A stretch of DNA of 40,793 nt from a virus. The DNA lies in the IMG/VR virus record IMGVR_UViG_3300048837_000378, positions 1-40,793 of that record; one strand, 5' to 3'. Below, piece by piece: positions 33,226 through 38,548 of the stretch (positions are counted from its first letter, which is position 1; each line of letters starts with the position of its first letter). The notes beneath the pieces were generated by a model. That model searched no databases. It was not told the origin of the DNA and worked only from the letters and a program-made list of their open reading frames with translations. Both the position numbers and the translations under genes were made by a program.

Positions 33226-33801
33226 ATGGCAAGAAGTTCAGTCGTAGACCCATTAGAGAAGTTCCGGTTTGCAATTTCATGGACAGCAGATGGTGATTCT
33301 GAAGGTACAGCTTTAGTGCGCCTCGGTTTTCACGATATGCAAATGCCCAAACGAGCGACTAATAAAATTAGTTATCGTGAAGGTATTGACCCTGATATCA
33401 ACCAACTAGCTCCAGGTTTGAGTACCACCGAAGATGTGGTTATGAGTCGCGGTACTATTATCACTGATATGAATGATGAATTCTATAAGTGGATTAGTGC
33501 TGTTCATAATCCCACTGCTGGTCACGTAGGACGCGAAGCTCTAGCAGCTCGAGCGTCAAACGCAGCAGCACACAAGTTTCGTAAAGACGTAACTGTTCAG
33601 ATGTTAGACCGTGAAGGTAATGTAGCCCGTCAATGGGTTTTGTACCAAGCATGGCCAACTAACTTTGTACCTGCTTCAGATTTGAATGCAGGCGAAGACG
33701 GTGAAAAAGCAATGGAACAACTTACTATTGCTTATGAAGACTTTAAAGAACTTGATGTAGCTGGCCAAGCGCGAGCGACTTCCTCAAGTCTACCTTCGTA
33801 A
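33226..33801 (+). CDS. Tail tube protein 1 (191 aa)
   Basis: MARSSVVDPLEKFRFAISWT is the N-terminus of the T4 gp19-like tube family (PF06841 type). The core includes RLGFHDMQMPKRATNKISYR and the conserved DREGNVARQWVLYQAWPTNF near the C-terminus. Tube rings stack inside the sheath. This copy has the richest C-ending and CGT codon usage of the three paralogues and lies directly behind the sheath, so it is probably the main tube. A terminator separates it from the other two. Confidence 0.93.
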   Translation: MARSSVVDPLEKFRFAISWTADGDSEGTALVRLGFHDMQMPKRATNKISYREGIDPDINQLAPGLSTTEDVVMSRGTIITDMNDEFYKWISAVHNPTAGHVGREALAARASNAAAHKFRKDVTVQMLDREGNVARQWVLYQAWPTNFVPASDLNAGEDGEKAMEQLTIAYEDFKELDVAGQARATSSSLPS

Positions 33802-33851: not shown

Positions 33852-34550
33852 ATGGCAAGGTCAAGTAAATCAGACCCAGTAGAAAAATTTAGATTTAGAG
33901 TGACAGTTATCGCTTTTGATTTAAGTTTAGCTGGTGCAGTAGACACTCTAGCAAATAGAGCAGACTTAGGTATCCATTCAGGATTAAAGTTGATAACAAG
34001 AGCAGGATTTACAGAAGTAACGCTCCCTAAAGCGACTATTAATGAGATTCCTTATAGAGAAAATATAGACAATTTAAGATTTATTAAAATTCCTGGTTTA
34101 GCAAAATATGAGCCCGTAACTCTTAAAAGAGGAGTCACAGGTAACAGAAATTTGTACGATTGGTATAGATTAGTAAATGAAGAGATAGCTTTAATGAACG
34201 TTGCTAACGAGCTAAGTAAAGACGCACAATTTTCAGTATCTCAAAGTGACGGCTATAGAAAAGATGTAGTAATTGAAGTTTTAGATAGAGAAGGTAAATC
34301 TGTAAAAGCTTGGTATTTGTTTAATGCCTGGCCTTCTACTTACATACCTGGAAATGATTTAAACGCTTCATCTGACGAAAAACTTTTAGAAGAGGTAACT
34401 CTTACTTATGAGTTTTTTGTTGAAATGGAAGGCGGTTTAGAGGGTTTTGCTAAAGAAATTGCAAAAGGCGCTCTTACAGTAGCCGCTAACGTATTACTAG
34501 AGAGATTTAAAAACGGAAAATTTGGAACTGGAAGCGGTTTAGGCTTCTAA
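33852..34550 (+). CDS. Tail tube paralogue 2 (232 aa)
   Basis: MARSSKSDPVEKFRFRVTVI and the later DREGKSVKAWYLFNAWPSTY show homology with tube gene 1. An N-terminal insertion (about 20-45) and a C-terminal extension of about 35 residues after FFVEMEGG distinguish it. It may form a specialised ring at the tail tip or the baseplate end, comparable to T4 gp54/gp48 in position only. Confidence 0.85.
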   Translation: MARSSKSDPVEKFRFRVTVIAFDLSLAGAVDTLANRADLGIHSGLKLITRAGFTEVTLPKATINEIPYRENIDNLRFIKIPGLAKYEPVTLKRGVTGNRNLYDWYRLVNEEIALMNVANELSKDAQFSVSQSDGYRKDVVIEVLDREGKSVKAWYLFNAWPSTYIPGNDLNASSDEKLLEEVTLTYEFFVEMEGGLEGFAKEIAKGALTVAANVLLERFKNGKFGTGSGLGF

Positions 34551-34559
34551 GGAGTAACT

Positions 34560-35153
34560 ATGGCTAGAAGTGCGCAGAAAGACCCCTTAGACAAGTTTAG
34601 ATGGGCAGTAAGCGTAGAAGGCTTCACTAGATTAGGCTTCACAGGTTGTGAGGTTCCTTCAGTTACTATAGGAACTAAATCTTATGCAGAGGGCGGAGCC
34701 CACCTGTACCCAAGAAAAATAGTAGATTCAGTAGAATATTCTCCAGTCACGTTGACTAGAGGAGTAACATTAGATAAAAGCTTTCACGATTGGGCTAGCA
34801 AAATATTTGAGTTGATTAAAGGTATGAGCGCACAGGAAGTAAAACTTATACAACAACAGTCACCTTTATTAGGCACCCCTAGTTACGAAAGACCTGCACC
34901 CGTAGAATATAGAAGAGAAGTGAAAATCCACCACCTAGACAGGCAAGGTAGAATTATCAAAACTTACATTCTTCACAATGCTTTTCCTATAGAGTATAAG
35001 CCTGCTTCAGATTTCGCATCTGACGGCGATGATACGCTAAGTATGGAGAAGTTAGTATTGACCTATGAAAGTTTTGAAGTAGTCACTAACAGTAAAGACA
35101 CTAATCCATTTGATGCTACGGACATCGTTAAACGGCTTATAAAAAGATTATAA
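34560..35153 (+). CDS. Tail tube paralogue 3 (197 aa)
   Basis: MARSAQKDPLDKFRWAVSVE, RLGFTGCEVPSVTIGTKSYA and HLDRQGRIIKTYILHNAFPI align with the other two tube proteins. GGAG lies before the ATG. The body has a 15-residue insertion (KLIQQQSPLLGTPSYERPAP). Probably a minor tube or tube-initiator subunit. Confidence 0.85.
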   Translation: MARSAQKDPLDKFRWAVSVEGFTRLGFTGCEVPSVTIGTKSYAEGGAHLYPRKIVDSVEYSPVTLTRGVTLDKSFHDWASKIFELIKGMSAQEVKLIQQQSPLLGTPSYERPAPVEYRREVKIHHLDRQGRIIKTYILHNAFPIEYKPASDFASDGDDTLSMEKLVLTYESFEVVTNSKDTNPFDATDIVKRLIKRL

Positions 35154-35178: not shown

Positions 35179-35946
35179 ATGAGAATTCAATTACCAAATG
35201 GTTTACTAGACGGTTCTGATTTGTTCAATTACGCAACAATAGACGAACTACGCGGTAAACAACAAAATTACCTTGCGGATAGAGAGCTGGTCGTTTCAAA
35301 TATCGGCCACATCCCCAAAATTTTATGCGACTTAGTATTGTCACTGGAAACAGCAGAAGGTCTTAAATGGGCTGGCAATATGGAAGAAGCCATCTACAAA
35401 TTGCCATCTGGCGACCTAGAAACAATCTTAGTAAAAATTCGTGAGAAATCTTACGGAGAACGTTTTTACTTTGAAGCTGAATGCCCCCATTGCGAACAGA
35501 AAAATAAAGATTTACGTATTGATTTATCTTCCTTAGAATTGGATGTTTTTACTTTAGAGCAAATGCTCGATAAGAAAGACAGAATTTTCATGTTACCAGG
35601 CGCTCAGCTTGAATGTGAAATTAAACCAATCCATCTTCGTGACCTTTTTGACGTCATCAAGATTAGTAAGAATAAGCAAAGTGAACTTATTACTTCTGTT
35701 TTAGCTTTGTCGCTAAAACGTCTAGGAACTTTATCAAAAGTCACTCCAAAAGACATTGAACAGTTATCTATGAAAGATATCATGATTCTCAAAGATAAAC
35801 TTGAAAAAGTTAAACTTGAAGGAACTTTGGATACTGAAATAGAAAACACTTGCGTCAAATGCGGTAAAGATTTTACCACAAAACTTGACGTTTTTGGGGC
35901 CGATTTTTTCGACCCTTCCAAGGGCTCACCGAGTACGAATACGTAA
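35179..35946 (+). CDS. Tail assembly chaperone, frame-0 product (255 aa)
   Basis: This lies between the tube genes and the tape measure, where myoviruses keep their tail assembly chaperones. Two CxxC pairs (AECPHCEQ at 102/105 and NTCVKCGK at 225/228) form a likely zinc site, as in T4 gp26-like proteins. The slippery T TTT TTC at 35904-35910 (codons for Phe243-Phe244) permits a -1 shift, after which the -1 frame stays open up to the tape measure start. The frame-0 product ends 11 codons past the slip site. Confidence 0.88.
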   Translation: MRIQLPNGLLDGSDLFNYATIDELRGKQQNYLADRELVVSNIGHIPKILCDLVLSLETAEGLKWAGNMEEAIYKLPSGDLETILVKIREKSYGERFYFEAECPHCEQKNKDLRIDLSSLELDVFTLEQMLDKKDRIFMLPGAQLECEIKPIHLRDLFDVIKISKNKQSELITSVLALSLKRLGTLSKVTPKDIEQLSMKDIMILKDKLEKVKLEGTLDTEIENTCVKCGKDFTTKLDVFGADFFDPSKGSPSTNT

Positions 35947-36098
35947 GTCACGAGCAAGACCTCTTGGATGATTACGCTTTTTTCGCTCAAGTTTGGAAGT
36001 GGCCTCCATCAGAAGTGGACGCACTTCGTTGGTCGCACAGGAAAAAGCTTAAACAAGCCTACAAAGATTATATGATAAATAATCCAGGGAAGAAATAA
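35179..36098 (+). CDS. Tail assembly chaperone, -1 frameshift product (about 306 aa)
   Basis: After slipping at 35904-35910, the ribosome would read RPFQGLTEYEYVSHEQDLLD, then YAFFAQVWKWPPSEVDALRW, ending YMINNPGKK at 36098. The extension (62 residues) is compact and rich in Trp/Tyr/acidic residues, as in gpGT-type extensions. Its stop overlaps the tape measure ATG (TAATG). The -1 frame has a stop at 35886-35888, just upstream, so it is not an independent gene: no ATG in this frame precedes the conserved part. Confidence 0.85.
35904..35910 (+). promoter_or_regulatory. -1 programmed frameshift site
   Basis: T TTT TTC in frame 0 (gat ttt ttc gac) is a canonical X XXY YYZ heptamer. Downstream, GACCCTTCCAAGGGCTC (35911-35927) contains CCCTT/AAGGG, a short hairpin that could promote slipping. 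The site position is equal to that in lambda G/GT and its equivalents. Confidence 0.82.
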
Positions 36099-38548
36099 TG
36101 AGAAACCTAAAGATTATAGTCACAGTAGTTGACAAAACTCAAAAACCATTAGAACAAGTTGAAAAACGTGTTCGCAAGACTGGCGCTGCTGCAAAATCAG
36201 CAGCTCTAGATTTTACAAAGTTTAATAGAATTTTGTTTACTACTTCGGCATTTGTTGGGACCTTTGTAAAAGGTTTTAGCACTTTGACTAACTCTATCGA
36301 AGAAGGAGCAAATTTTGATAGACTAGTGACTCAGTTTGAACGAGTAATGGGACCAAAAGGGCAACTTTTTGATTCCATCAGTTCTATGACTGACGCTTCC
36401 ATCGATAAGATGGAGGCTATGCGTGAAGGATTATCTTTAGGTAGCCTTGGTATTATAAAAAACTCCAGTGAATTAGCAGCTATGGTCACTAAGGCCGGAG
36501 TCGCTTCAAAACTTGCTGGTAAAGATTCTGGAGAAGGAATTAAACAATTCTCCAGCTTCCTAAAAGACGGTAACGTAAGTCATCTAGAATTTTTCAATTT
36601 AATTGCTAGAACAAATCCTGCATTACAAGCACAGATGGCCATTCTCGGCAAAGCTGGCGGAATAATGGGGACAGTAGTCACTACTCAGGCGCGTTTGGCT
36701 ATGGGCCAAGCATTGCTCTCAGCAGCAACAAAAGGACAATTAAAAGGATTTAGAGATTTAAAAGACACAGTAGCAGATTACCGCCAAAACTTACTATTAC
36801 TGAAAAATAATATAGGAACCTTATTAGGAAAAGCTTTACAGCCTCTAATAGACAGTTTTTCTAGGCTATTAGAAAAATCTTCTAATTTTATTGATTCTAT
36901 TAAAGATAACAAACAAGTTAGATTTCTTATTAAATTTTTCACAGTAGCAGCCGGAGCAACATTAGGTTTAGCTGGAGCATTAGGAACATTAAGATTAGCT
37001 GTAATGGCTTTAGGTTCCTTGGGATTCGGACTACCTCGTTTGATTGCTTTGGGCTTAGGTTTAGGCACTACTTTCTTAGGTATCACTAAACCTGTTAGTA
37101 GCTTTGCCGACAAACTAAAATTAATTGGGGCAGTCGTAAAAGGTGTATGGGAACTAATCTCTACTCTAGACAGCGAAACTGGTATTGCAAAACTATCAGA
37201 ATCTACTTATAAACTATTAAAACAGAACGGCCTTCTAGGATTTGTACAATTTCTTGGAAGAGTTGGTTCAGTAGCTAAAACAGTAGTTTTGAATATGTTT
37301 GACGCTTTTAAATGGTTAGGAAAAAAATTAGACGACGTGTTCGGAGGAATGTTCCAAACTGTCATTAAATTTTTTCAAAAAATCAACGACCCTTGGTCTA
37401 ATTGGTGGGTAAATGATAGTGTAGCTCCTATTGAAAAAGGTATGCGAGCCGCTACAGTAATTGTTTCTACATTTGCCGCCCTATGGATGGGCAAAAAAAT
37501 GCTAGGAGGAATAGCTGGAGTTTTAAGTAAAATTCCTGTTATTGGTAAGCTGTTCGGCGGAGCTGGTAAAGGCACCGGCCCTACAGGAGATGCTACTGAC
37601 CCAATTTTTACTGTACCCATCGGCGGTGGACTAGCTGGAGGAATTCCAGGACTAGGTAAAGCCAAGGATGCGATATTTGGTAGATTGGGCAAAATACTAG
37701 GACCTTTGTCTTTAGCTTTTCAAAATTTACTTTTAAGAAGTAAAATTCTTGGTGAAATATTTACTCATCCAGGCGGTAAACTTCGCGGACTTATGTCTGT
37801 ATTTGGTAGTTTTGGTAAGAGTTTTCTAAGTCTCGGAAGAGTCGTAGGAACTTCTATTATGGCATTTGGAAGTACAATACTTACTAGCCTAGTTACAATG
37901 TTTTCATCTTTAGCTCCTTTATTAGGTCCAGCAATAGCAGTTACTGCTGCCGCTGGAATCGGTTACGCAATTGGAACGGCAATTAACACTTTAATAGCTA
38001 AATACACTCAAGGCGAAACTGAAGAAGGTTTTAAGGGAGATTTGTTTGAGCGAGCAGGGTTCAAAGTAAATAAATTGTTTGGTGGAGAATGGTCTAAACG
38101 TGAGATGGCTCTGGCAGATTTCCAAAAGAAATCAGACGTAGACATAGTAAATGAGTTTAGAAAGAAAAACGGTCAACCACCCCTGACAGCGGACCAAGAG
38201 CAAAAACTTAGGGAATCTTCTAAATCTGGACCAACAGTACCAACGTCGAGCCAACTGATGACTCCTATGAAACAGACGTCATCAATAATCCCTGATTCAG
38301 TTCAATCAGAATTAGAGTCATTAAATCAACTTGGCGAGAATATGCAAAACACACCAAGTTCAGACGCTACGGTTATGAAAAATAACATAGAAAAAATGTT
38401 AGCTAGCGGAAAAGAACCTCAAGAAGTTGCGTCACAATTACTCGGAAGTAAATTAGATGATACTAATTACTACTTAGAAGTTATTGCAGGAAATACTGGC
38501 AAAAGCCAATCCTTACAAACTAATCCTATGACTAAAAGGGAGCGATAA
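36098..38548 (+). CDS. Tape measure protein (816 aa)
   Basis: Length in the window's tail module, helical N-terminus (EKRVRKTGAAAKSAALDFTK) and several long hydrophobic Gly/Ala/Leu stretches (AAGATLGLAGALGTLRLAVM, then GPAIAVTAAAGIGYAIGTAI) are typical of tape measures. The protein fixes tail length inside the tube and later passes the host membrane. The C-terminal 150 residues are polar and may carry a hub-binding part. No peptidase motif is seen. At about 820 residues the tail should be of moderate length. Confidence 0.92.
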   Translation: MRNLKIIVTVVDKTQKPLEQVEKRVRKTGAAAKSAALDFTKFNRILFTTSAFVGTFVKGFSTLTNSIEEGANFDRLVTQFERVMGPKGQLFDSISSMTDASIDKMEAMREGLSLGSLGIIKNSSELAAMVTKAGVASKLAGKDSGEGIKQFSSFLKDGNVSHLEFFNLIARTNPALQAQMAILGKAGGIMGTVVTTQARLAMGQALLSAATKGQLKGFRDLKDTVADYRQNLLLLKNNIGTLLGKALQPLIDSFSRLLEKSSNFIDSIKDNKQVRFLIKFFTVAAGATLGLAGALGTLRLAVMALGSLGFGLPRLIALGLGLGTTFLGITKPVSSFADKLKLIGAVVKGVWELISTLDSETGIAKLSESTYKLLKQNGLLGFVQFLGRVGSVAKTVVLNMFDAFKWLGKKLDDVFGGMFQTVIKFFQKINDPWSNWWVNDSVAPIEKGMRAATVIVSTFAALWMGKKMLGGIAGVLSKIPVIGKLFGGAGKGTGPTGDATDPIFTVPIGGGLAGGIPGLGKAKDAIFGRLGKILGPLSLAFQNLLLRSKILGEIFTHPGGKLRGLMSVFGSFGKSFLSLGRVVGTSIMAFGSTILTSLVTMFSSLAPLLGPAIAVTAAAGIGYAIGTAINTLIAKYTQGETEEGFKGDLFERAGFKVNKLFGGEWSKREMALADFQKKSDVDIVNEFRKKNGQPPLTADQEQKLRESSKSGPTVPTSSQLMTPMKQTSSIIPDSVQSELESLNQLGENMQNTPSSDATVMKNNIEKMLASGKEPQEVASQLLGSKLDDTNYYLEVIAGNTGKSQSLQTNPMTKRER

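Follow-up and report, generated by a model that had tools for sequence, protein, structure and literature searches.

Organization of the locus

The stretch of DNA analysed here, referred to as the window, comprises bases 1-40793 of a virus record of 104,793 bases, and the gp26-like gene, its slip site and extension, the stem arms, and the tape measure gene described below lie on its plus strand. The gene at 35179-35946 encodes a 255-residue protein that resembles T4 gp26, a 'baseplate hub' protein. It is located between the tail tube genes and the position of the tape measure gene. That position is occupied by a gene for an 816-residue protein (36098-38548), which is called a tape measure protein by position only; a search of Pfam and PHROG gives no match for it at E 0.1. 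Upstream of the gp26-like gene there are three tandem gp19-like tail tube genes (33226-33801, 33852-34550, and 34560-35153), the middle one being the longest with 232 residues.

The 255-residue protein is a member of the gp26/gp51 N-terminal family. It matches PF12322 (T4 base plate protein) in Pfam at E 3.8e-10, which passes the cutoff, and phrog_150 (baseplate hub) in PHROG at E 2.1e-8, and its model matches gp26-like proteins in BFVD. A second Pfam entry, Phage_TAC_7, is found below the threshold (E 0.0024). The protein contains CxxC pairs. On its sequence, we read it as the putative short form of a tail assembly chaperone, TAC-N.

An AlphaFold2 model of the protein, built from an 11-row alignment, has a mean pLDDT of 83.8 and a pTM of 0.81, and its top match in BFVD is the baseplate hub subunit of SP-15 (E 4.5e-15). 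Foldseek against PDB finds nothing for this model at E 0.001 or better. When 420 PDB chains were re-aligned with VIA-align, three reached Z 2 or more, the best being the HK97 tail assembly chaperone 2ob9_B (Z 4.8, rmsd 4.3, 90 of 104 residues; Foldseek E 4.9). The likeness to HK97 may serve as a lead rather than a proof, a Z of 4.8 being within the range of chance matches.

The slip site and the -1 frame

Near the end of the gp26-like gene lies the slippery heptamer T_TTT_TTC (35904-35910). The codons of the gene at this place are GAT TTT TTC GAC, so that the heptamer is in the X_XXY_YYZ phase, and 11 sense codons separate it from the 0-frame stop TAA at 35944-35946. The stretch 35911-35946 is thus read in both frames. 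Counted from 35904, the -1 frame is open for 64 codons, 62 of them beyond the slip codons, and this extension (35904-36098), the predicted TAC-C domain, ends with TAA at 36096-36098, which overlaps the ATG of the tape measure gene (36098) by one base. In the upstream direction the -1 frame is closed by TGA at 35886-35888, five open codons before the heptamer. The phase of the heptamer, the 62-codon open frame reaching the tape measure start, and the stop just upstream had all been part of the original prediction, and all three are confirmed.

Heptamers of this type are common in the window: 46 in-phase X_XXY_YYZ heptamers occur in its 25 plus-strand open reading frames of at least 150 residues (7736 codons). 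The one at 35904-35910 is the sole heptamer that is followed by a -1 frame open for at least 30 codons beyond the 0-frame stop. As only one of 46 leads into a long -1 frame, the site is more than what chance would provide. An in-phase heptamer together with an overlap of the shifted frame, the combination known from slip sites of the lambda G/GT type, is what the scan of the 46 heptamers and the alignment of relatives found at this place. The extension itself has no match in Pfam, and in PHROG it has only phrog_299 at E 0.07.

Conservation among close relatives

Sixteen relatives of the locus were found. Two of them (L007 and L116) end before the site, and the other 14 together with the window make up 15 rows. 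Four pairs are identical over the compared stretch (L002 and the window, L106 and L105, L110 and L109, L114 and L113), which leaves 11 distinct rows. In further searches for relatives, viral contigs queried with the hub protein alone, the tape measure protein, and the extension yielded nothing but the identical contig 3300048838_000345, a profile scan gave no contig beyond the 16, a scan of genome contigs gave no further relative, and a tblastn search of 50,697 phage records with the extension gave nothing.

T_TTT_TTC and a -1 extension are present at the same place in all 15 rows (11 distinct), with extensions of 63-66 residues; in L113-L115 the extension is cut by the contig ends. Among the nine distinct complete extensions, pN/pS past the 0-frame stop is 0.36 in the -1 frame and 1.09 and 1.38 for the same bases in the other two frames, and pN is lower than pS in the -1 frame in 36 of 36 pairs. 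The alignment was built on the -1 protein and leans slightly to that frame, with few gaps. The extension is under purifying selection in the -1 frame. Both the slip site and the coding in the shifted frame are therefore conserved among relatives, as in frameshifts of the lambda G/GT type.

These data bear on the idea that the junction is a sequencing or assembly error, or that a degenerate gene has been split by an indel. The junction does contain a homopolymer of six Ts and comes from a metagenomic contig, but the contig record L002 is identical to the window over all 920 nt, which argues against an assembly indel. Moreover, the same junction recurs in 13 further relatives from other contigs, and the -1 frame is under purifying selection. 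We regard an error or a broken gene as practically out of the question.

A candidate stimulatory stem

Stimulators of -1 frameshifting are typically located 5-9 nt downstream of the slip site. At 7 nt downstream of the heptamer, CCAAGGG (35918-35924) may pair as the 5' arm of a 7-bp stem with CTCTTGG (35961-35967), a 3' arm of unusually conserved Leu codons. Pairing is possible in 68 of 70 cells of the alignment, with one compensatory change (A-U to G-C in L104) and breaks in L103. Of the two Leu codons in the 3' arm, which belongs to the -1 frame alone, one is CTC in 9 of 10 sequences and the other TTG in 8 of 10, although CTC accounts for only 18 of the 352 Leu codons in these genes. When codons were resampled synonymously, the observed pairing was matched in none of 20000 trials; with all relatives treated as one shared draw, 844 of 20000 were as good. 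Pairs of sequences having the same residue differ in codon in 26 of 90 cases at the 3'-arm codons versus 152 of 365 at the neighbouring ones. The covariation score, which stems from the single compensatory pair, is reached by 53 of 500 shuffles. Folds of 60 nt at nine loci have z-scores between -0.9 and -5.4 (-1.5 for the window), and 100-nt folds are unremarkable. The pairing of 35918-35924 with 35961-35967 is likely, though unproven, to be the stimulator.

The original prediction had pointed to another hairpin, CCCTT/AAGGG, which it placed one base after the slip site, as a possibly atypical stimulator; the hairpin actually starts two bases after the heptamer. Since the 5' arm of the 7-bp stem uses the same AAGGG bases, the two structures are mutually exclusive. 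All five pairs of CCCTT/AAGGG are complete in just two of the 11 distinct sequences (the window and L109), and the 4-bp version breaks in three. Its 4-bp core is paired in 37 of 40 cells, over the 10 rows that differ in this stretch, with no compensatory change. Because this hairpin lies wholly within the dual-coded stretch, its conservation does not show a function in RNA. A role of CCCTT/AAGGG as an atypical stimulator is not supported, and the stem at 7 nt is the better supported candidate.

The stem does not appear to be a property of the whole family. RNAalifold was applied downstream of the heptamer to 75 distinct cyanophage sequences, drawn from the 78 loci with extensions of at least 55 residues (the two short ones, L047 and L088, being left aside), and no conserved structure was found. 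The absence of a common stem in cyanophages implies that the pairing of 35918-35924 with 35961-35967 is not family-wide.

Counterparts in cyanophages, jumbo phages, and T4

At least 592 cyanophage-like gp26 loci exist, the best 80 of which were examined. In all 80 the gp26-like gene ends with TTT TTC, one sense codon, and the stop, and carries the heptamer T_TTT_TTC; 78 have a -1 extension of 62-71 residues, and the other two are cut by contig ends. T TTT TTC with a -1 extension is also present in Atu_ph07, S-RIM50, S-H34, and PA5oct, and XacN1 has T TTT TTT with a -1 extension. In S-RIM50 and S-H34 part of the extension carries the annotation gp51, 'baseplate hub assembly catalyst'. The annotated cyanophage 'gp51' genes begin at internal starts (L017:5525-5662 and L018:5672-5860).

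The extension of the window group was compared with that of the cyanophages as a possible sequence match, and the profile comparison was not significant. By hmmsearch no window-group sequence scored better than 0.88 and decoys scored better; hhalign gave a probability of 12% and E 0.0023 over 16 columns around W..sEiDnm.W; and the window extension has no match to phrog_634, the PHROG family to which the S-RIM50 and S-H34 extensions belong.

In T4, genes 26 and 51 lie on opposite strands (L022:3803-4429, minus, and L022:4480-5229, plus). Both products belong to PF12322. The short gp26 matches phrog_150 and not phrog_634, while gp51, with an extra C-terminal domain, matches phrog_150 and in addition phrog_634 over residues 147-246. 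The two proteins align weakly with each other (20% identity, with E 2e-6 as a one-to-one comparison). With the S-RIM50 extension as its sole target, a BLASTP search with gp51 gave no match, and the link between gp51 and the cyanophage extensions accordingly rests on profiles. From these matches it appears that T4 carries the short and long versions of the chaperone as two genes, a counterpart of the G/GT pair. A review of T4 (PMC3004832) counts gp26 and gp51 among the hub assembly chaperones and describes gp51 as an essential protein that has no known function and is missing from the particle; it also cites work that places gp26 in the hub.

The 'gp51' annotation raises the question of whether the extension is a separate small gene that starts inside the -1 frame and requires no frameshift. 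The original prediction stated that there is no independent start, which is not literally true, as TTG (35964), GTG (36015), and ATG (36072) occur in the -1 frame of the extension. The TTG is shared by 8 of the 10 other distinct relatives, and 77 of 78 cyanophage extensions have a start codon within their first 30 codons, most commonly an ATG at codon 21 (58 loci). However, the start position is not fixed, the two relatives lacking the TTG having TTA (L103) or CTG (L104) at this codon, codon 20. The residues ahead of all the candidate starts are conserved as well (FFRP(F/Y)QG...). A separate gene would also leave unexplained the invariance of the in-phase T_TTT_TTC in 80 of the 80 best cyanophage-like loci, and the existence of T4 gp51 as one long in-frame fusion. 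We find a separate gene in the window highly improbable, and the small genes annotated as 'gp51' in cyanophages more likely represent C-terminal extensions of gp26.

A run of six Ts could also invite slippage by RNA polymerase in place of the ribosome, and the protein outcome could look alike. Yet the phase of T_TTT_TTC is invariant, every heptamer in the 80 cyanophage-like loci and the 15 rows stops at six Ts followed by C, and distant relatives reach their extension with TTC TTT CGT, which contains no long run. Transcriptional slippage is, in our view, very improbable.

A probable tail assembly chaperone in two forms

Taken together, the conserved heptamer, the -1 coding, the gene position, the protein family, and the two-gene counterpart in T4 bear out the predicted programmed -1 frameshift in a tail assembly chaperone. 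We are highly confident, from comparative sequence data, that the gene at 35179-35946 encodes this chaperone in two forms, TAC-N and TAC-NC, by programmed -1 slippage at T_TTT_TTC. Most ribosomes would terminate after the 255 residues of the gp26-like protein. A minority, holding tRNA-Phe in both the P and A sites on TTT TTC, would slip back by one base, probably aided by the stem 7 nt downstream, and would translate a further 62 codons, giving the long form as a small share of the product. If the pair acts like lambda gpG/gpGT and T4 gp26/gp51, the short form would coat the tape measure protein, the C-terminal domain of the long form would recruit tail tube subunits, and both forms would depart before the tail is completed.

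The lambda proteins gpG and gpGT are described in PMC5009743 as absent from the virion and as organising the tail tube around the tape measure protein; there, G-T frameshifting is called conserved in long-tailed phages 'except T4'. Xu, Hendrix & Duda 2004 is the reference cited for gpG/gpGT and for the equivalent proteins of other long-tailed phages. In contrast to the lambda pair, the N-terminal protein of the window is a 255-residue gp26-like protein with CxxC pairs.

The closest known system is the T4-like TAC-N/TAC-NC. The window shares with it the N-terminal family (PF12322, phrog_150), a T-run slip site, a C-terminal extension, and, in most relatives, the place before the tape measure gene. 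T4 itself differs by its separate genes 26 and 51 on opposite strands, and the extension of the window is too diverged for a sequence match to the cyanophage extension of the T4-like system. Vladimirov and colleagues (2022) reportedly assigned the TAC-N/TAC-NC role to genes 26 and 51 and found that several T4-like groups use frameshifting. This work on the T4-like TAC-N/TAC-NC (Vladimirov, Gautam & Davidson 2022, Virology 566:9-15) appears as a citation in PMC10885494 and PMC12846349, the latter naming it as the source for slip signals made of T runs in the TAC-N genes of T4-like phages. The general claim of frameshifting in T4-like phages thus appears to be already in print.

Another related case is the chaperone of Pseudomonas phage Adele and the Vandenendeviridae, in which, according to PMC12846349, 56 unique alleles share a -1 frame open over 200 bp. 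The logic of a -1 frameshift, a T-rich slip motif, and triplicated tail tube genes are common to both, whereas the motif is GTTTTT there and TTTTTTC in the window. The comparisons argue that the programmed -1 frameshift at the window site is genuine and well conserved, and that it belongs to a known kind, that of lambda G/GT and the T4-like phages. With this comparative support, which is strong, frameshift-made tail chaperones are extended to another uncultured myovirus-like group, and the locus offers a clean site and a testable stem for measuring what fixes the proportion of the short and the long chaperone in T4-like phages.

Putative direction of the shift in the gp26-like family

A scan with the hub proteins of SP-15, LIS04, and GXN1 returned 35 loci, three of which reach the contig end ahead of the 0-frame stop. 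Among the remaining 32, the long open frame that follows this stop is +1 in 29 and -1 in three. The gp26-like genes with a +1-frame extension are those of 29 of the loci L133-L164 together with L005, L006, L013, L014, L020, and L021. In most of the +1 loci TTT_CGN occupies the Phe-Phe position at which T_TTT_TTC is found in other relatives.

Adding six loci (GXN1, LIS04, LR756508, Mel-JY01, BRock, and LuckySocke) and removing four duplicates gives 31 distinct +1 loci. The candidate +1 sites are TTT_CGN in 20, TTT_CAN in three, TTT_CTN in one, TTT_T in three, and CCC_AGT in four. In the upstream hub codons of the +1 loci TTT_CGN is observed in 0 of 7928, versus 2.5 expected. At nine loci pN/pS of the +1 extensions is 0.85 in the +1 frame versus 0.87 and 1.48 in the others, values that do not single out the +1 frame.

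We lean towards the view that one shift point has been kept at or beside the conserved Phe-Phe near the end of the gp26-like gene while its direction has changed: -1 at T_TTT_TTC in the window group, in cyanophages, and in several jumbo phages; +1, with TTT_CGN as the main site, in SP-15-like and many uncultured phages; and two genes with no frameshift in T4. If this is true, the -1, +1, and two-gene arrangements would yield the same protein pair by three decoding strategies. Opposite shift directions in one protein family would provide a natural setting in which to compare how one frameshift signal is exchanged for another.

The TTT_CGN motif is not new. It serves +1 shifting in influenza A PA-X (PMC3498833), TTT_CGn has been proposed as the +1 site in the myovirus tail chaperone of HF1-group haloviruses (PMC7230728), and UUU_Ynn is noted as shift-prone in bacteria (PMC5009743). 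A literature search that covered few subscription papers found no report of +1 frameshifting in the gp26-like family, and hence no precedent for the putative use of TTT_CGN at or beside the same Phe-Phe. Four of the loci (L152, L155, L157, and L161) lack TTT_C and have AAT CCC AGT at the end of the hub gene, possibly a +1 slip site for Pro-tRNA.
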